Source: Hymenobacter aerophilus DSM 13606 (GTDB lineage Bacteria > Bacteroidota > Bacteroidia > Cytophagales > Hymenobacteraceae). From it: a stretch of 64,000 bases of DNA. The stretch lies in contig NZ_KB907806.1 of NCBI RefSeq assembly GCF_000382225.1, forward strand, positions 5,394 to 69,393. The letters are read 5' to 3'. This document shows, in pieces, positions 4,139-61,204 of the stretch (positions are counted from its first letter, which is position 1; each line of letters begins with the position of its first letter). The translations under genes were made by a program, and so were the position numbers. The notes below the pieces were generated by a model. That model was not told the DNA's origin. It worked only from the letters and a program-made list of their open reading frames with translations, and made no database searches.

Positions 4139-4236
4139 CGTCATTCAGAGCGAAGCGAAGAATCTTGCGTGCTACTGTTGAACGACAACCGTTATAACGA
4201 CTCCGAGCGAGATTCTTCGCTTCGCTCTGAATGACG
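4139..4236. repeat. Long inverted repeat, family A copy 1
   Basis: The arms CGTCATTCAGAGCGAAGCG and its complement enclose a non-palindromic loop. The whole unit, loop included, recurs in reverse orientation at 16538-16647. It lies between the ferredoxin gene and tdk and could fold as a long hairpin in either transcript. Confidence 0.9.
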
Positions 4237-16520: not shown

Positions 16521-16554
16521 AAAGAACGTCATTCAGAAAAGAACGTCATTCAGA
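16521..16554. repeat. 17-bp direct duplication at the edge of repeat copy 5
   Basis: AAAGAACGTCATTCAGA occurs twice in tandem (16521-16537, 16538-16554). The second copy continues into the long inverted repeat. This looks like a partial or aborted insertion, or a slippage footprint. Confidence 0.8.
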
Positions 16555-16647
16555 GCGAAGCGAAGAATCTCGCTCGGAGTCGTTATAACGGTTGTCGTTC
16601 AACAGTAGCACGCAAGATTCTTCGCTTCGCTCTGAATGACGTTCTTT
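16538..16647. repeat. Long inverted repeat, family A copy 5 (mirror of copy 1)
   Basis: Near-identical to the reverse complement of copy 1 (4139-4236), including the non-palindromic loop GGAGTCGTTATAACGG. It lies between the permease promoter region and the end of the response-regulator gene. Confidence 0.9.
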
Positions 16648-16670
16648 CCCTAATCCTAATCCCTGACCCG

Positions 16671-19895: not shown

Positions 19896-20003
19896 AGAAC
19901 GTCATTCAGAGCGAAGCGAAGAATCTCGCGTGCATTGGTAACTTCCTGATGGCAGGATTACTTTGGCACGCGAGATTCTTCGCTTCGCTCTGAATGACGT
20001 TCT
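19896..20003. repeat. Long inverted repeat, family A copy 6
   Basis: Arms AGAACGTCATTCAGAGCGAAGCG and complement, with inner GAATCTCGCGTGC and GCACGCGAGATTC arms. It lies between two convergent genes. Confidence 0.9.
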
Positions 20004-20470: not shown

Positions 20471-20612
20471 ACCCCACCCCCGGCCCACCTTGCTCAAAGC
20501 GCAACATCCTCCGGGAGAGGGGTGCCAGCCGCGAGTTCAAGAACTATACTTCGTTGAACGCACCCCTCTCCCGGAGGATGTTGCGCTTTGAGCAAGGTGG
20601 GTCGGGGGGGGG
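20471..20612. repeat. Long inverted repeat, family B, 41-bp perfect stem
   Basis: The arm CCACCTTGCTCAAAGCGCAA continuing to GAGAGGGGTGC pairs exactly over 41 bp with the right arm. Ragged C/G-rich tails CCCCACCCCCGG and CGGGGGGGG flank it. The CTCCGGGAGAGGGGTG core relates it to the copies at 30203, 30849 and 55156. It fills the spacer between the globin and the upstream membrane protein. Confidence 0.92.
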
Positions 20613-21435: not shown

Positions 21436-23952
21436 ATGCCCACCGTTCTCGAAGAAGCTACCGTTACCGACGTTGCCTGCGCCCACTGCGGCGACGCCTG
21501 CCCGCCCGAGCCGCTGGAGCTGGCCGGCCAGCCCTTCTGCTGCGCCGGCTGCCGCACGGTGTACGAGCTGCTGGCGGCCAACAACCTGTGCACCTACTAC
21601 AACCTCGACGAGCGCCCCGGCCTCAAAGTAAAGGAAGTGGAACTGCCCGGCCGCTTCGACTACCTCGACTCGGAAAGCGTGCAGGCCCAGCTGCTGAGCT
21701 TCCGCTCGGAGGAGCGGGCGCGCCTGACCGTGAGCGTGCCCCAGATGCACTGCACGTCCTGCATCTGGCTGCTGGAGCACTTGCCCAAGCTGAACGCGGG
21801 CATCGTGGAGGCGCGGGTGCAGTTCCTGCGCAAGGAAATCACCATCACCTACCTCACCGCCCGCACCTCGCTCAAGGATGTGGTGGCCCTGCTGGCTTCC
21901 GTGGGCTACGAGCCCCAGATTACGCTGGCCGAGCTGGGCGCCCAGCCCCACCGCGCCAGCCGCACGCTCTACTACCAGCTGGGGCTGGCGGCCTTCGCCT
22001 TCGGCAACGTAATGCTGCTGGCCCTGCCCGACTACTTCTCGTTTGTCGAGGAGTTGCAGGCCGGGTTCGGGGGCTTCTTTGGGCTCCTGAGTCTGGCGCT
22101 GGCGCTGCCGGTGCTGCTGTACAGCGCCCGCGACTTCTTCCGCTCGGCCTGGCAGGGGCTGCGGCAGCGGTATATCAACCTCGACTTTCCGATTAGCCTG
22201 GGGCTGCTGGCCTTGTTTGGGGTGAGCAGCTGGGAGGCGCTGAGCGGCCAGGGGCCGGGCTACTTCGACTCGTTTACCGGGCTGGTGTTCTTTATGCTGA
22301 TTGGCCGCTGGGTGCAGCAGCGCACGTACGACGCGCTGCGCTTCGACCGCGACTTTACGTCCTACTTCCCGGTGGCCGTCACCCAGCTCACCCCCGAGGG
22401 CGACAAGTCCATCTCGGTGCGGGAGCTGCAGGTGGGCCACCGGATTCGGGTGCGCCACCAGGAGGTGGTGCCGGCCGATGCGGTGCTGCTGCGCGGCGAC
22501 GGGCAGATTGACTACTCCTTTGTATCGGGCGAGAGTACGCCGGTGGCGCGGGCCTCGGGCGAGCTGGTGTACGCCGGCGGCCGGCAGCTGGGCGAGGCCG
22601 TGGAGCTGGAAGTGGTGCGCGAAGTCAGCCAGGGCTACCTGACCCAGCTGTGGAACAACCCGGCCTTCGCCAAGGAAAGCCGCCACCAGGGCCTGGAAAC
22701 CTACGCCAACCGGGTGGGCCGCTACTTCGTGGGCATCACGCTGGCGCTGGCGCTGGGCACGCTGCTCTACTGGGGCCCGCGCGACCAGGCCATGATGTGG
22801 CGGGCTTTCACCTCGGTGCTGATTATTGCCTGCCCCTGCGCCCTCTCGCTGGCCACCCCGTTTGCCCTGGGCGCGGCCGTGCGAGTGCTGGGCCGCCACA
22901 AGTTCTACCTGAAAAACTCGGCCGTCATCGAAACGCTGGCCCGCGCCGATACGCTGGTGTTCGACAAGACCGGCACGCTCACCGACCCGCACCAGGCCGC
23001 CGTGCAGTACCACGGCCGCCCCCTCACGGCCGCCGAGCTGAGCCTGCTCACGACGGCCGCCGCCCAGTCAACCCACCCGCTAAGCCAGCGGCTGGCCCGC
23101 GAGGCCAATGGCCCGGCCCGGCCCCTGCGCCACTGCCACGAAACCTCCGGCCAGGGCCTCGAAGCCACCGCCGACACGGGCGAAACGGTGCGCCTGGGGG
23201 CGGCCGGGTTCACCGGCAGTACCGCCAAGCTCCCGCTTCGCGACGCGCCGAACGATAGTAGCGCGAAGCTTCCGCTTCGCGACTTGTTGAGCGACACGGC
23301 GCCTGATGGGCGCGAAGCAGAAGCTTCGCGCTACTTCGACGCGCCCGAAACGCGGGTGTACGTGGCGTTTGAGGGCGAGCCGGCGGGTTACTACACCTTC
23401 CCCAACGTGTACCGCCCGGCCCTGCCCGAGGTGCTGGCCGGCCTGGGCGGGCACTACCGGCTGGCCGTGCTCTCGGGCGATACGGCCGCCGAGGAAGCGC
23501 GCCTGCGCGCCATGCTCGGCCCCGACGCCGCGCTGCACTTCCGCCAGTCGCCGGCCGATAAGCTGGCCTACATTGCCGCCGAACGGGCCAACGGGCATAC
23601 CGTGGTGATGGTGGGCGACGGCCTCAACGACGCCGGGGCCCTGCGCGCCGCCGATGCCGGCCTGGCCCTCACCGACACGCTCACCAACTTCTCGCCCGCC
23701 TGCGACGCCATCCTCGACGCGGCCGAGTTCGGCCGGCTGGCCACGTTCCTGCGCTTCTCGCGGGCCTGCCTGCGGGTGGTGCTGGCCACCTTCGTGCTCT
23801 CGTTCTGCTACAACGCTTTCGGCCTCACGCTGGCCGTGCAGGGTTTGTTCACGCCCATCGTCTCGGCCATCCTCATGCCCATCAGCTCGCTGAGCGTGAT
23901 GCTGGTGGCCACCGTGCTGGTGCGCCGGGCGGCGGCCAAACTTTGTCTTTGA
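21436..23952 (+). CDS. ccoI: CcoI-type copper-exporting P1B ATPase
   Basis: An 838-residue P1B-type ATPase that supplies copper for cbb3 oxidase assembly. An N-terminal Cys-rich domain (C15, C18, C22, C35, C36, C39) is followed by an HMA domain with CTSC at 106-109 and eight expected membrane helices. The ion-selective CPC is at 466-468, phosphorylated D510 is in DKTGTLT, and GDGLNDAG spans 727-734. The domain order matches CcoI/FixI. The nucleotide-binding domain contains an unusual insert of about 40 residues (about 594-634) with two SAKLPLRD-like units. The insert is encoded by a palindromic repeat. ccoS follows 90 bp downstream. Confidence 0.93.
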   Translation: MPTVLEEATVTDVACAHCGDACPPEPLELAGQPFCCAGCRTVYELLAANNLCTYYNLDERPGLKVKEVELPGRFDYLDSESVQAQLLSFRSEERARLTVSVPQMHCTSCIWLLEHLPKLNAGIVEARVQFLRKEITITYLTARTSLKDVVALLASVGYEPQITLAELGAQPHRASRTLYYQLGLAAFAFGNVMLLALPDYFSFVEELQAGFGGFFGLLSLALALPVLLYSARDFFRSAWQGLRQRYINLDFPISLGLLALFGVSSWEALSGQGPGYFDSFTGLVFFMLIGRWVQQRTYDALRFDRDFTSYFPVAVTQLTPEGDKSISVRELQVGHRIRVRHQEVVPADAVLLRGDGQIDYSFVSGESTPVARASGELVYAGGRQLGEAVELEVVREVSQGYLTQLWNNPAFAKESRHQGLETYANRVGRYFVGITLALALGTLLYWGPRDQAMMWRAFTSVLIIACPCALSLATPFALGAAVRVLGRHKFYLKNSAVIETLARADTLVFDKTGTLTDPHQAAVQYHGRPLTAAELSLLTTAAAQSTHPLSQRLAREANGPARPLRHCHETSGQGLEATADTGETVRLGAAGFTGSTAKLPLRDAPNDSSAKLPLRDLLSDTAPDGREAEASRYFDAPETRVYVAFEGEPAGYYTFPNVYRPALPEVLAGLGGHYRLAVLSGDTAAEEARLRAMLGPDAALHFRQSPADKLAYIAAERANGHTVVMVGDGLNDAGALRAADAGLALTDTLTNFSPACDAILDAAEFGRLATFLRFSRACLRVVLATFVLSFCYNAFGLTLAVQGLFTPIVSAILMPISSLSVMLVATVLVRRAAAKLCL
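23215..23335. repeat. Palindromic element translated within ccoI
   Basis: The arms 23257-23281 and 23311-23335 are 25-nt reverse complements with one mismatch. Each arm is itself a near palindrome (CGCGAAGC...GCTTCGCG). A partial direct copy of the arm lies at 23224-23243. The arm layout, GTAGCGCGAA...TTCGCG, is the same as the intergenic repeat at 50490-50583. The reading frame stays open throughout. Confidence 0.8.
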
Positions 23953-24026
23953 GCTGCAAGCCTCAAGCTACAAGCTGCAAGCTTCTTGCCCATAGCTTAC
24001 AGCTTGTAGCTTGAGGCTTGCAGCTC
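23951..24026. repeat. Inverted repeat, family D, ccoI-ccoS spacer
   Basis: GAGCTGCAAGCCTCAAGCTA continuing to 23976 pairs exactly over 26 bp with 24001-24026. It starts right at the ccoI stop and ends 16 bp before ccoS. A hairpin here could separate the levels of the two genes. Confidence 0.9.
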
Positions 24027-24042
24027 ACTAACCCTTTCTGCC

Positions 24043-24198: not shown

Positions 24199-24282
24199 GG
24201 GAGAGGCAAACCCCGGCCCGATAAGGCGTTTGTGCGTTTCCAGGCCGTGAAGGCCATTTCCGATTTACCGGACAGCGTTTTG

Positions 24283-24492
24283 GATGCGTCGGATGGCGTT
24301 TTCGATGCGTCGAAAGCTCCGTCCGATGCACCGAAGACGCCTTTCGGTGCATCGAAAACGATAACCAACGCACCGAAGACAGCAACCAACGCACCGAAAG
24401 GCGTCTTCGATGCGACGAAGACACCAACCAACGCACCGAAGACGCCTTCCGGTAAAGCGAAAGCGCTGTTCGGTGCGTCGAAAATGATAGCC
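24283..24492. repeat. Ten 21-bp repeats between ccoS and ccoNO
   Basis: Ten degenerate 21-bp units cover 210 bp. Many unit junctions contain the dyad TTCGRTGCRYCGAA. In one plus-strand frame (GTG 24232 to 24504) they read as heptads such as DAPKTPF, NAPKTAT and GASKMIA. The minus strand is also open and reads as similar heptads. Neither ORF has a convincing start. A period of 21 bp equals two helical turns, so the dyads lie on one DNA face. The rest of the 24199-24642 spacer holds the ccoNO operator and promoter box. Confidence 0.85.
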
Positions 24493-24642: not shown

Positions 24643-26850
24643 ATGCAAGCCGCAACACCGCTACCGCCGGCCGCGTCCGACTCCGTCCTGGTTCATCCCG
24701 ACCAGGAGCGGGCCGTGGACACCTTCTTTTATGACAACCGGATTGTCCGCGACTTTGGCCTGGCCACGGTGTTCTGGGGCATTGCCGGGATGTTGGTGGG
24801 CATCATGGCCGCCTTCCAGCTGGCCCAGCCCGATGTCAACCTGCACACCTCCTTTACCACCTTCGGGCGCATCCGGCCGCTGCACACCAACGCCGTGATT
24901 TTCGCCTTCGTGGGCAACGGTATTTTCATGGGCGTTTACTACTCGCTGCAACGCCTGTGCAAGACGCCCATGTACTCCAAGGCCCTGAGCAAGCTCCACT
25001 TCTGGGGCTGGCAGCTCGTTATCCTGAGCGCGCTCATCTCCCTGCCCATGGGCTTCACCACCAGCAAGGAATACGCCGAGCTGGAGTGGCCCATCGACAT
25101 CCTCATCACTATTATCTGGGTGGTGTTCGGCTGGAACATGTTCGGCACGATTGCCAAGCGGCGCGAGCGGCACCTGTACGTGGGCATCTGGTTCTACATC
25201 GCCACCTTCCTGACGGTGGCCGTGCTGCACATCGTCAACTCGATGGCCATTCCGGTGAGCTTCATGAAGAGCTACTCGGCCTACGCCGGCGTGCAGGATG
25301 CGCTGGTGCAGTGGTGGTACGGCCACAACGCCGTGGCCTTCTTCCTGACCACCCCTTACCTGGGTTTGATGTACTACTTCCTGCCCAAGGCCGCCGGCCG
25401 GCCGGTGTACTCGTACCGCCTGAGCATTATCCACTTCTGGTCCTTGATTTTCATCTACATCTGGGCCGGTCCGCACCACCTGCTCTACACCTCGCTGCCC
25501 GACTGGGCGCAAAGCCTGGGCGTGGCCTTTAGCGTGATGCTGCTCGCGCCCAGCTGGGGCGGCATGATCAACGGCCTGCTGACCCTGCGCGGGGCCTGGG
25601 ACAAAGTGCGGGAGGAGCCGGTGCTCAAGTTCCTGGTGGTGGCCATCACGGCCTACGGCATGGCCACCTTCGAGGGCCCCATGCTGAGCCTGAAGAACGT
25701 GAACGCCATTGCCCACTTTACCGACTGGATTGTAGCGCACGTGCACGTAGGGGCTTTGGGCTGGAACGGCTTCCTCACGTTTGCCATGCTCTACTGGCTG
25801 TGGCCGCGCCTCTACCGCACGCCGCTGCACTCGAAGAAGCTGGCCAACCTGCACTTCCTGATTGGTACGCTGGGCATCCTGTTCTACGCCATCCCGATGT
25901 ACTGGGCCGGCTTCACGCAGGGCCTGATGTGGAAGCAGTTCAACGCCGAGGGGATGCTGCAGTACCCCAACTTCCTCGAAACCGTGCTGCAGATTGTGCC
26001 CATGTACTACCTGCGCGGTATCGGCGGCATCCTGTACCTGAGCGGCGTGTTCCTGATGGTGTACAACCTGGTGAAGACCGCCAAAGCCGGCTCGCTGCTG
26101 GCCGAGGAGAAGGCTCAGGCCGCCCCGCTGCTGCCCGCCGACCAGGACCCCCACGCCAACGAGGGCCACTGGCACCGCTGGATTGAGCGTCGTCCCTTCC
26201 AGATGGCCATCTGGGCCACCGTGGCCATTGCCATCGGCGGGGCCGTGGAGATGGTGCCCACCTTCCTCATCAAGAGCAACGTGCCCACCATTGCGGCCGT
26301 GAAACCCTACTCGGCGCTCGAATTGCAGGGCCGCGACCTCTACATCAAGGAAGGCTGCTCGAACTGCCACACCCAGATGGTGCGCCCGTTCCGCTCCGAA
26401 ACCGAGCGCTACGGCGAGTACAGCAAAGCCGGCGAGTTTGTGTACGACCGCCCCTTCCTGTGGGGCAGCAAGCGCACCGGGCCCGACCTGCACCGCCTCG
26501 GCGGCAAGTATCCGCACTCCTGGCACTACAACCACATGCTCGACCCCACCAGCATGTCGCCCGGCTCCATCATGCCGCCCTACCCGTGGCTGTATGAGAA
26601 CGAGACGGACTACGCCGAACTGCCGGCCAAAATCAGGGCGCTGCAGAAGCTGGGCACGCCTTACCGCGCCGGCTACGATAAGCAGGCCGAAGCCGACGCC
26701 CGCCGCCAGGCCGACCAGATTGCGGCCGACCTGAAGAAAGAGGACATCGACGTGAAATCGGACAAGGAGATTGTGGCCCTCATTGCCTACCTGCAGCGCC
26801 TCGGCACCGACATCAAGGTGAAGCCCGTCGCCGAAACGGCCGGCCAGTAA
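24643..26850 (+). CDS. ccoNO: cbb3 cytochrome oxidase, fused CcoN-CcoO subunit
   Basis: A 735-residue fusion of the catalytic haem-copper subunit CcoN (about 25-485) and the monohaem cytochrome c subunit CcoO (about 520-735). CcoN has twelve or so helices and the expected histidine-rich blocks (IRPLHTNAVIFAF, WWYGHNAVAFFLTTP, AGPHHLLYTSLP, DWIVAHVHVGALGW). CcoO has one membrane anchor and C572-SNCH, with a later Met-bearing SMSPGSIMPPYPW. The enzyme reduces O2 to water with high affinity and pumps protons. N-O fusion is usual in Bacteroidota. Its promoter carries an FNR-like box. Confidence 0.96.
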   Translation: MQAATPLPPAASDSVLVHPDQERAVDTFFYDNRIVRDFGLATVFWGIAGMLVGIMAAFQLAQPDVNLHTSFTTFGRIRPLHTNAVIFAFVGNGIFMGVYYSLQRLCKTPMYSKALSKLHFWGWQLVILSALISLPMGFTTSKEYAELEWPIDILITIIWVVFGWNMFGTIAKRRERHLYVGIWFYIATFLTVAVLHIVNSMAIPVSFMKSYSAYAGVQDALVQWWYGHNAVAFFLTTPYLGLMYYFLPKAAGRPVYSYRLSIIHFWSLIFIYIWAGPHHLLYTSLPDWAQSLGVAFSVMLLAPSWGGMINGLLTLRGAWDKVREEPVLKFLVVAITAYGMATFEGPMLSLKNVNAIAHFTDWIVAHVHVGALGWNGFLTFAMLYWLWPRLYRTPLHSKKLANLHFLIGTLGILFYAIPMYWAGFTQGLMWKQFNAEGMLQYPNFLETVLQIVPMYYLRGIGGILYLSGVFLMVYNLVKTAKAGSLLAEEKAQAAPLLPADQDPHANEGHWHRWIERRPFQMAIWATVAIAIGGAVEMVPTFLIKSNVPTIAAVKPYSALELQGRDLYIKEGCSNCHTQMVRPFRSETERYGEYSKAGEFVYDRPFLWGSKRTGPDLHRLGGKYPHSWHYNHMLDPTSMSPGSIMPPYPWLYENETDYAELPAKIRALQKLGTPYRAGYDKQAEADARRQADQIAADLKKEDIDVKSDKEIVALIAYLQRLGTDIKVKPVAETAGQ

Positions 26851-26892: not shown

Positions 26893-26990
26893 CGTCATTC
26901 AGAGCGCAGCGAAGAATCTCGCTTGATGCTATTGAACAATCAGCAGTGCAACGAGTCCGAGCGAGATTCTTCGCTGCGCTCTGAATGACG
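26893..26990. repeat. Long inverted repeat, family A copy 7
   Basis: CGTCATTCAGAGCGCAGCG arms with a GAATCTCGCT inner arm and an unpaired loop. It sits inside the cco gene string, between ccoNO and ccoQ. It is therefore likely transcribed and could process or stabilise the mRNA. Confidence 0.88.
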
Positions 26991-31811: not shown

Positions 31812-32738
31812 ATGAAAACCCTGCTCGTTTCCCTCGACCACACTGCCGCCGCCGAGCACACCCTCGCCTACGCCAACAAGCTGGCCGTGCGCTGGCCCGC
31901 CGAAATCGTGCTGCTCTACTGCCACCCCGCGCCCGCCGAGGCCCAGTCGGCCACCACTACGGCCAGCGTGCTGGCCGCCGAGGAGCAGCGCCTGCGGAGC
32001 CTGGTTGAGCGCCTGCGCTACCAGCAGCTCACCCGCCAGGACGGCCGCCGCATTCGCTACCGTTACCGCCTGCACAGCGGCTGCCTCCACGATTACGTGC
32101 GCGCCGAGGCGGCCCGCTGCGCGGCCGATATGCTGGTGATGGGCCTCGAACACGTGGACTGCGGCCGCGCCGAAGCCCCCGGCAACCACGCCGCCGCCAT
32201 CCGCGAGCTGGTCGATTGCCCGGTGCTGATTGTGCCGCCGGGCCGCCGTTCGTTGCCCAACCGCCTGGTTTTCGCCGCCGATTTCAGCGCCCTGCCGCTG
32301 GCCGTGCTGCCCCGCGCTTCGGCTTTGGCCGAGGCCTTCCCGGCCCCGCTGGAGTTGGTGCAGTTCTATGCGCCCCAGGAGCGAAGCCGCCGCCGCGCCC
32401 TGCAGCTGGCCCTAGGCCGCGCCGCCGCCCAGCTCACCTGGCCGGCCATCAACCGCCACCTGCTCGAAGACGACGCCCCGCTGGAAGGCACCGGCGACTT
32501 CTGCGCCCGCACCCAGGCCCAGCTGCTGCTGATTGCGCCCGCCAGCCAGGCCGAGCTGCTGCGCTACTTCGATGCCTGCTACACGGCCACCCGCGCCTAC
32601 CACACCTGCATTCCGGTGCTGGTGCTGCCCGCCACCGCGCCGGCCGCCGCCGTTACCTGCTGCGACAAATGCGCCGAGCGCCTCGCCCAAACGGAGTCTC
32701 AAACGCCCCGCACGCTGGCCAAGATAGCCGGGCTGTAG
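31812..32738 (+). CDS. Universal stress protein, tandem domain
   Basis: A 308-residue soluble protein with two Usp-like halves, residues 1-140 (MKTLLVSLDHTAAAEHTL, ADMLVMGLEH, CPVLIVPPG) and 145-285. The canonical ATP loop G-x2-G-x9-G is not clear, so it may be a non-ATP-binding type. The C-terminal tail has an unusual cysteine cluster (VTCCDKCAERL). In Bacteroidota, Usp genes often accompany cbb3 clusters. The stop codon TAG lies inside the left arm of the repeat at 32734-32840, so the last residues may have been changed by insertion of that element. Confidence 0.82.
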   Translation: MKTLLVSLDHTAAAEHTLAYANKLAVRWPAEIVLLYCHPAPAEAQSATTTASVLAAEEQRLRSLVERLRYQQLTRQDGRRIRYRYRLHSGCLHDYVRAEAARCAADMLVMGLEHVDCGRAEAPGNHAAAIRELVDCPVLIVPPGRRSLPNRLVFAADFSALPLAVLPRASALAEAFPAPLELVQFYAPQERSRRRALQLALGRAAAQLTWPAINRHLLEDDAPLEGTGDFCARTQAQLLLIAPASQAELLRYFDACYTATRAYHTCIPVLVLPATAPAAAVTCCDKCAERLAQTESQTPRTLAKIAGL

Positions 32739-32840
32739 AGACGCGTATTCGCGTCTCGTCGTTGCTGACGCTGGGCGTCCAACACCTATCTGTTCTGCTG
32801 CCGGTCGTTCAACGACGAGACGCAAATACGCGTCTCTACA
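32734..32840. repeat. Family C inverted repeat at the usp 3' end
   Basis: The arm TGTAGAGACGCGTATTCGCG pairs with CGCGTCTCTACA and the adjacent AACGACGAGACGC. The element begins inside the last codons of the usp gene and supplies its stop. It ends 43 bp before hemF. Confidence 0.87.
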
Positions 32841-38635: not shown

Positions 38636-38727
38636 TTTAGCTGCAAGCCGCAAGCTACAGGCGGCGAGCTGACGTTCAACATCAGCTTGCCGCCTGTAGC
38701 TTGCGGCTTGTCGCTTGCAGCTAAAAA
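38636..38727. repeat. Inverted repeat, family D copy
   Basis: TAGCTGCAAGCCGCAAGCTA and CAGGCGGC arms pair with GCCGCCTG and TAGCTTGCGGCTTG...GCAGCTA. It runs up to five bases before the stop of the ABC/M1 gene. The sequence resembles the ccoI-ccoS element at 23951-24026. Confidence 0.88.
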
Positions 38728-50489: not shown

Positions 50490-50583
50490 GTAGCGCGAAC
50501 TTTGTAGTTCGCGCGGCTGCCGGTTCGGTCGTGCGGCTAATATGCTAAAGGCGCGGGGACGCGAACTACAAAGTTCGCGCTAC
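50490..50583. repeat. Cruciform-type inverted repeat (GTAGCGCGAACTTTG type)
   Basis: The arms 50490-50513 and 50560-50583 are perfect 24-nt complements. Each arm is itself palindromic (CGCGAACT-TTGT-AGTTCGCG), so the unit can form a three-stem shape. Same layout as the element inside ccoI at 23215-23335. It fills the nuoM-nuoN spacer. Confidence 0.9.
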
Positions 50584-55155: not shown

Positions 55156-55280
55156 GCCTCACCCCCGGCCCCCTCTCCAGGGGGAGAGGGGGTGCCACAC
55201 GACAGTATGTATAGGCGGTAGTAACGGCAGCCGTTGAACGCACCCCCTCTCCCCTTGGAGAGGGGGCCGGGGGGTGAGGC
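55156..55280. repeat. Family B inverted repeat in the nuoK-SWIM spacer
   Basis: GCCTCACCCCCGGCCCCCTCTCC and GGGGAGAGGGGGTGCC-type arms pair with GGAGAGGGGGCCGGGGGGTGAGGC. The arms are long, so the spacer of 345 bp is mostly this element. The loop holds GTATGTATAGGCGG and GGCAGCCGTTGAACGCA, the latter also found in copy 20471-20612 (CGTTGAACGCA). Confidence 0.9.
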
Positions 55281-61109: not shown

Positions 61110-61204
61110 AGCTGTTAGCTGACAGGTATTAGCTGTTAGCTTATGTTCAACAATGGAGCATAAAGCACGGAGAGCTAACAGCTAATAGCTGTCAGCTAAC
61201 AGCT
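61110..61204. repeat. Inverted repeat (AGCTGTTAGCTG type) nuoG-nuoH
   Basis: AGCTGTTAGCTGACAGGTAT continuing to TTAGCT (61110-61141) pairs exactly with 61173-61204. The same type of sequence occurs at 63660-63768, 15050-15075 and 34732-34755. Confidence 0.88.

Follow-up and report, generated by a model that had tools for sequence, protein, structure and literature searches.

REPINs, or repetitive extragenic palindromic (REP) doublets forming hairpins, consist of two inverted REPs with a spacer between them, form hairpins, and are dispersed through genomes that also carry genes for REP-associated tyrosine transposases (RAYTs) (Bertels and Rainey 2011, PMC3116915). That REPs also occur inside genes is already known, because Di Nocera et al. 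2013 (PMC3733652) report GTAG- and CGTC-tagged REPs lying wholly within open reading frames of several species, as singles or as dimers, with 20-30 residues encoded by most dimers and by grouped inserts; the available text of that paper also describes different REPs at approximately the same recB site in two Xanthomonas species and, in its section 15, places the emphasis on replication and repair genes. Rickettsia palindromic elements (RPEs) likewise are in-frame palindromes in protein genes. Transposases of TnpA-REP subclass 2.4, which have the motifs NH[IFV]H, WQ and YIxNNP, are abundant in Cyanobacteria and Bacteroidetes (PMC6006769). Here we analyze a palindromic insert that is read in frame within a likely ccoI gene of Hymenobacter aerophilus DSM 13606, located in a 64,000-nucleotide stretch of contig NZ_KB907806.1 (positions 5,394 to 69,393; assembly GCF_000382225.1) that we refer to as the window and in whose coordinates positions are given unless a contig is named. 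The insert had been singled out in an initial annotation made from the letters of the window alone.

The ccoI insert shares with the REPINs of PMC3116915 the inverted-doublet architecture, the dispersed copies and the presence of RAYTs, but those elements are analyzed in extragenic space in the available text of that paper, whereas the ccoI copy is genic and in frame and owes a third arm to a direct repeat of 39 nt. With the intragenic REPs of Di Nocera et al. it shares a location inside an open reading frame, and it differs in that a single loop of the protein has received four element types across several species. Its resemblance to RPEs is, going by the available text of PMC3733652, one of behavior only; RPEs belong to another lineage, whereas the ccoI element is a GTAG-tagged REP doublet in a genus that has RAYTs. 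Literature searches (Hymenobacter, REP/REPIN, RAYT, Bacteroidetes) returned no report of a REP inside a gene for the Hymenobacter lineage, and the available main text of PMC3733652, its supplementary tables apart, has no mention of Hymenobacter and one of Bacteroidetes. The view in the initial annotation that no such case had been described may hold for this lineage, although intragenic REPs have been reported from other phyla (PMC3733652).

Results

The initial annotation had described two complementary 25-nt arms with one mismatch, each palindromic in itself, within a reading frame that stays open, and all of this was confirmed. The arms at 23257-23281 and 23311-23335 are 96% complementary at a spacing of 29 nt, the inner left and right arms each consist of GTAG followed by a short hairpin with an 8-bp stem and a 4-nt loop, and the frame runs uninterrupted from 21436 to 23952, specifying 838 residues. 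A third, degenerate left arm (23218-23242) is an addition to that description: positions 23218-23255 and 23257-23294 form direct repeats that are 79% identical at 39-nt spacing (Table 1). The peptide specified by the insert reads TAKLPLRD...SAKLPLRD...REAEASRY, in which the SAKLPLRD-like units that had been pointed out are indeed repeated. As a single strand the insert folds more stably than dinucleotide shuffles (z of -4.9 as DNA and -6.4 as RNA, matched by 0 of 200 shuffles each), and its arm score was equalled by 0 of 200 shuffles. A REP arm of this kind is open in two of the three forward frames and in all three reverse frames.

In what follows, G000 denotes the genome that holds the window and other G-numbers denote genomes of the same genus. 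The pattern GTAGCGCGAAN8TTCGCG has 70 exact matches in G000 (34 forward, 36 reverse), compared with 0 for a reversed-pattern control, which bears out the earlier suggestion of a dispersed palindromic element; the same pattern is matched in 104 of 120 same-genus genomes. Among 37 G000 clusters examined, 21 are simple inverted pairs (18 of these are 85-91 nt long; the ccoI copy is 77 nt), 2 are larger arrays and 14 have one exact arm, some of these last with a degenerate partner arm recognizable by a profile. The array at G000:C25:1812-2110 (L131) is a tandem REPIN array in which four REP arms follow one another in direct orientation every 71 nt, accompanied by a single inverted arm. The profile, built from 18 G000 copies of which none came from ccoI and searched against the window, matched ccoI positions 23258-23334 with an E-value of 7.6e-14 and positions 50490-50583 with an E-value of 0.023. 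The likeness that had been remarked between these two sites is sound insofar as the second element is real, with fully complementary arms, but that element belongs to a sister REP subfamily with a CTTTGTAG core rather than GCTTCCGC.

Several features of REPs and REPINs were found in the insert: a GTAG tetranucleotide 5' of an imperfect palindrome (in the inner left and right arms), dispersal in many copies, and an inverted doublet with a spacer. An extragenic location, which is typical of REPs and REPINs without being essential, does not apply to the ccoI copy. Judged from its sequence, the insert is best filed as an inverted pair of GTAG-tagged REPs, a REPIN belonging to the RAYT/REP system. 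This modifies the comparison with RPEs made in the initial annotation, which captures the occurrence of an in-frame palindrome in a conserved protein gene but fits less well than REPIN given the GTAG tag, the inverted doublet and the linked RAYTs.

Only two RAYT homologues were found in G000 at an E-value of 1e-10, the second lying on contig C23 with 34% identity. The first, a Y1 transposase at C9:71116-71712, scored 89.9 bits with NF047646 (REP-associated tyrosine transposase; cut-off 80) and 27.2 bits with Pfam PF01797 (cut-off 23), and has a CTTTGTAG-type REPIN 75-187 nt upstream and a related REP-like palindrome at its stop codon. Its motifs NHVH, WQ and YVVNNP, read by eye against the subclass 2.4 table, are similar to those of that subclass, a comparison made by motif only; the available text of PMC6006769 stresses REPs inside the transposase gene, whereas the G000 RAYT has them immediately upstream and at its stop codon. 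We looked for GTAG-type palindromes around a set of 30 RAYT loci (L064-L093). At 22 of them, one side of the gene shows an inverted pair no more than 500 nt away; by the same detector, segments 700-1220 nt away contained any such palindrome at 8 of the 30 loci. Paired REPs were also found at three of five closer further loci (L106-L109, L111) and at one of 15 loci of distant homologues with ~30-35% identity (L113). In G012 (L107) and G105 (L109), RAYTs are flanked by REPs like the ccoI subfamily (GCTCC-type, GTAGCGCGAAGCTCC..., with spacers of the CGTTG kind), and a RAYT flanked by matching REPs exists in G000 for the CTTTGTAG subfamily only. RAYT linkage holds for the element family, and insertion at ccoI would presumably have been RAYT-driven.

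We surveyed 121 elements in five genomes (37 of 41 clusters in G000, 19 of 21 in G001 with ccoI and RAYT copies omitted, and 22, 21 and 22 in G003, G011 and G008, where the sets are part of the listed matches). We counted spanning frames of at least 150 codons that extend 40 codons or more beyond the element in both directions, a definition that leaves insertions near gene ends or those that break a frame uncounted. Nineteen such frames were found, two of which are the ccoI frame and its antisense, and three are coding-like by GC content at codon positions (ccoI, L133 and L196). When the remaining 17 were compared with Pfam, 11 had no match and six matched only downstream of the element (L004, L168, L233 and L215, with weak matches in L196 and L216). 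Pfam matches on both sides of the element were found in 0 of 17, and we rejected these long frames as further in-gene cases. The search for palindromes within reading frames that the initial annotation had called for therefore gave one clear result: the ccoI copy is the only one clearly within a gene among the 121 surveyed elements. With 85% of the genome assumed to be coding, random placement would yield one or fewer genic copies among 37 with a probability of ~7e-29, suggesting that selection or targeting keeps these elements out of genes. A search of 120 genomes with the insert peptide returned the ccoI genes of G087, G000 and G001 (E ~3e-12) and of G034 and G058 (~1e-4) as its top five matches and gave an E-value of 0.01 for the sixth; frames of 416 and 491 residues that this search brought up in G079 and G087 failed as coding-like spans.

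The host frame matches the Pfam families ATPase-cat_bd, E1-E2_ATPase and HAD hydrolase above their cut-offs and HMA slightly under (23.4 bits, cut-off 24.8), as well as NCBIfam models for heavy-metal, copper and general P-type ATPases, with the specific models scoring below their cut-offs. Its closest solved relatives are copper ATPases, namely CopA (3j09), and it contains CPC, DKTGT and GDGLND, which we take to be the CPC, DKTGT and GDGxND motifs of P1B-type ATPases. The next large frame (24643-26850) presumably encodes cytochrome cbb3 subunits, which makes CcoI/FixI the likely identity of the host protein, judged from this context. In an AlphaFold2 model computed from the window protein and 35 relatives, the mean predicted local distance difference test (pLDDT) score is 77, and the longest segment below 50, residues 598-636, sits between strands at 584-588 and 638-645 and coincides with the insert. 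The structure modeling that had been proposed thus places the insert in a low-confidence loop, in frame within the nucleotide-binding (N) domain region as the initial annotation had it; by this model, it is probably an exposed, disordered loop of the N-domain.

Among the genomes compared, the insert is carried by G000, G087 and G001 in a three-arm form and by G058 and G034 in a two-arm form that is 30 nt shorter, this indel being in frame. The G034 insert is eroded, its arm score being equalled by 47 of 200 shuffles, and it was counted as a carrier only through alignment with G058 and G000. In the G058 loop (L034) both arms have matching changes (CTTGGCG / CGCCAAG), and the palindrome has therefore been kept intact; either template-switch correction or an original variant could account for this. 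Most species at ~80% CcoI identity have other loops. Of 80 named relatives outside the genus, 77 have a loop of 8-19 residues (others 30, 34 and 52; median of the 80, 10); it is 45 residues long in G000. The insert is thus not common to all relatives, and close homologues do not uniformly carry a segment of the same length, as they would if this were an ordinary loop. The alignment of related CcoI proteins therefore delivered the expected presence and absence but not the clean ends, which cannot be demonstrated because the loop is hypervariable and the linker found at the insert site in G079, the one close species without the element and 90-91% identical in the flanks, is an unrelated sequence of 60 nt. 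When aligned with G000, the G079 gene (L166) also shows a gap of one base ~200 nt before the loop, and its frame is therefore broken or misread in that assembly.

In a tree of ccoI DNA, the five carriers and G079 group together (100/100), with G058, G034 and G079 forming one subgroup (98/96) that G001 joins (90/90), while the protein tree mostly does not separate these six. Duplication and subsequent loss would fit the way in which the arms are arranged, as would exchange between species. Between G000 and G001, the insert has 2 synonymous and 2 nonsynonymous differences in 39 codons; the counts are 80 and 19 in 594 codons upstream and 28 and 16 in 206 codons downstream. These very few changes give no sign of strong protein constraint on the insert.

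The same loop has been entered by palindromic elements in other species, which suggests that it is a tolerated landing site. We identified ccoI orthologues in 69 genomes (two partial) and, looking at this loop in particular, could read it in 68, the exception being G065. A palindromic insert or remnant is present in 10 of the 68, and these represent four element types. Beyond the G000 group, G117 and G096 have GTAGCGCGGACTTTG-type REPINs with differing boundaries, G011 has a diverged doublet that by eye is GTAGAGACGCG-like, and G101 and G010 have a long-arm AGCCGGCCGACC palindrome. Apart from G034, each of the ten carriers has an arm score above that of every one of its 200 shuffles. Shuffles were scored for the 21 loops of at least 70 nt caught by a regular expression. 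The expression missed 22 rows; the peptides of 20 of these indicated compact loops, G042 was judged compact as well, and an arm search made without shuffles on 19 of the missed rows gave best arms of 7-12, whereas four carriers reached 14-23 and G080 reached 14. A half-REP in G041 (GTAGCGCGAACT) was not counted, as 147 of 200 shuffles equalled its arm score.

Other copies of these elements were found in the genomes concerned. The GTAGCGCGGACTTTG family appears thin in G117, since there are two exact copies, one of them in ccoI; G096 has five, two in ccoI. A longer pattern of the GTAGAGACGCG family has 44 matches in G011 and 30 in G000, while a short pattern for the G011 element gave few matches and a similar number for its reversed control. 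In the window, the doublet at 32734-32840 is of the GTAGAGACGCG family, which the G011 ccoI insert resembles. With up to 40 first-look candidates scored per genome, and arms and strands counted separately, the G101 palindrome has at least 65 matches in G101, at least 33 in G010 and at least 76 in G080, which lacks the insert. In the protein tree, whose bootstrap had not settled, G011 groups with G062, G081, G035, G069 and G068 (93/89), none of which has a palindromic insert, and lies outside the 21-row clade that contains the other carriers (100/100). The G000 group, G117 and G096 fall in a polytomy of this tree, which would fit either three insertions or one converted site, and a similar junction, GGC AGT AGC GCG (GGC AGT ACC in G000), is seen in the G000 group, G117 and G041.

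A second N-domain loop contains a fifth element type in G016 (L047) and G055 (L050), an in-frame CCCCACCCCC palindrome of 101 nt whose arms match at 36 of 39 positions in G016 and 37 of 40 in G055 and which reads PTPSPSPPGEG...PLPEGRGRGWG. Look-alikes of this palindrome occur in the window at 20473-20612 and 55162-55273. The CcoI N-domain of this genus may be a recurrent landing site for palindromic mobile DNA at the protein level, at least four types having entered one loop in frame in different species (REPINs of the GCTTCCGC, GGACTTTG and GAGACGCG types, and the long-armed GGCCGACC palindrome) and a fifth a second loop, a proposition that we regard as evenly balanced.

Table 1. Positions in the window of the ccoI insert, its parts, its host gene and the sister element.
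Feature	Position	Strand	Evidence
ccoI/fixI-like P1B-type ATPase gene, host of the insert, 838 aa	21436..23952	+	open frame; Pfam; NCBIfam; CopA structures
Palindromic insert, three arms, ~40 codons (residues 595-634)	~23218-23337	+	repeat search; model segment 598-636 with pLDDT <50
Outer left REP arm, degenerate (GTACCGCCAAGCTCCCGCTTCGCG; GTAC not GTAG)	23219..23242	+	repeat search; weak profile matches, E 0.056 and (reverse) 0.04
Inner left REP arm, GTAG + CGCGAAGC TTCC GCTTCGCG	23258..23281	+	exact pattern match G000:C7:28651-28674; profile match
Right REP arm, inverted, GTAG on - strand	23311..23334	-	exact pattern match G000:C7:28704-28727 (-); repeat search
REPIN (inverted REP doublet), GCTTCCGC subfamily, 77 nt	23258..23334	+	profile match, E 7.6e-14
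Direct repeat, unit 1 of 39 nt	23218..23256	+	79% identity to unit 2
Direct repeat, unit 2 of 39 nt	23257..23295	+	repeat search; G058 and G034 without unit 2
REPIN, CTTTGTAG sister subfamily	50490..50583	+	24-nt arms, 100% complementary; no spanning frame of >=120 codons

Further palindromes were seen in the window. One with 34-nt arms (TGAGCTGCAAGCCTC...) at 23950-24027 starts at the ccoI stop codon and spans the gap to the next small frame, and has look-alikes at 38639-38715 and 61110-61204. A large imperfect inverted repeat at 24255-24486 (96-nt arms, 72%) contains short similar units, has open frames on both strands and lies before the cbb3-like gene. Palindrome doublets of the CGTCATTCAGAGCG type are located at 4139-4236, 16531-16654, 19896-20003 and 26893-26990, and their CGTC tag resembles that of the CGTC-tagged REP superfamily as described in the available text of PMC3733652.

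Discussion

We consider it highly probable that a REPIN inserted in frame into a flexible N-domain loop of CcoI and has been retained there as a tolerated spacer, the same loop having been hit by other elements. REPINs are non-autonomous mobile elements thought to be copied by a RAYT through single-stranded DNA, and the insertion at ccoI would have taken place in the common ancestor of G000, G087, G001, G058 and G034. It may have been retained because the frame used is free of stops, the insert is of a length that preserves the frame, and the loop can accommodate additional disordered residues. The common 86-nt length would set the second frame once the first is fixed. In G000, G087 and G001, the left arm occurs twice, as diverged 39-nt copies in tandem. 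Any insertion that disrupted ccoI would have been eliminated, leaving the surviving one as a spacer without known function. We infer that the insert is translated and is tolerated or neutral.

Several observations weigh against this explanation. The ccoI DNA tree nests G079, which has no insert, within the element-bearing clade (98/96), although because of that nesting its absence may be a secondary loss. No target-site signature, target duplication or exact empty site was found at ccoI. The RAYT on contig C9 of G000 flanks the CTTTGTAG subfamily rather than that of the ccoI element, and no REP was found within 500 nt of the second homologue on C23; since neither G000 RAYT is linked to the ccoI subfamily, the ccoI element would be an orphan of a lost RAYT or have moved in trans. 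Flanking palindromes were absent within 500 nt at 8 of the 30 RAYT loci (L069, L078, L080, L082, L089, L090, L091 and L093). Long loops without palindromes exist in G053 (57 residues) and in G060 and G061 (38 residues each), and the compact 14-residue loop of G080 has a short inverted repeat (14 of 16 matched, not counted), so that neither loop length nor palindromy is decisive by itself. Finally, low pLDDT is expected for any segment that is absent from the other 35 rows of the alignment.

These points invite comparison with other accounts of the locus. The long loops bear on the idea that the segment is simply a hypervariable linker, ranging from ~11 to 68 residues within the genus, whose palindromy is due to chance or to duplication and inversion at the site itself, without a mobile element. 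We find this highly improbable, since the arms match the pattern with 70 exact matches, the profile match and the shuffles (0 of 200) are as given above, and other loops match other dispersed families; that both arms exactly match the pattern shared by the dispersed G000 copies in effect refutes this account. We give equally little credence to an RPE-like element independent of RAYTs. A palindrome in frame within an apparently functional protein gene is what is described for R. conorii (PMC3733652), but the GTAG tag, the inverted doublet and the linked RAYTs point to the REP/RAYT system, and the two kinds are not fully separate, because the available text of PMC3733652 files RPE-4 and RPE-6 among the CGTC REPs.

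The two remaining accounts accept a REPIN and concern its history or its effect. A single old insertion in the ancestor of a larger clade, followed by conversion between REP subfamilies and many losses, would explain why the G000 group, G117 and G041 share or nearly share their junction and why the REP arms use the same reading frames. We nevertheless regard it as unlikely: G096, G011, G101 and G010 have other types or boundaries, the relatives of G011 are without a palindromic insert, the shared frames are partly a consequence of the stops that the arms contain and of the common length of 86 nt, and several losses would be needed. Alternatively, the insert might be useful, with linkers tuning CcoI (through N-domain movement and copper delivery to the cbb3 oxidase) or the hairpin tuning translation, such that recurrence would reflect positive selection. 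Consistent with this are the four element types in one loop and the fifth in another N-domain loop, the strong RNA hairpin, and the matching arm changes that keep the G058 palindrome. However, nonsynonymous changes equal synonymous ones within the insert, albeit on few changes, the G034 palindrome is largely eroded, and 58 of 68 readable loops have no counted insert, leading us to think a useful insert quite improbable.

That several element types have entered a single loop may be a new finding, as beyond recB our literature searches found no report of such recurrence. The ccoI case adds a metal-transport protein, and an apparently new lineage, to the known instances of mobile palindromes in genes. 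Because several element types enter the same loop, the CcoI N-domain offers a natural series (no insert, fresh, duplicated and eroded) in which tolerance can be set against selection. If the N-domain is indeed a recurrent landing site, REPIN traffic, whether tolerated or favored, would keep supplying these bacteria with new protein linkers.

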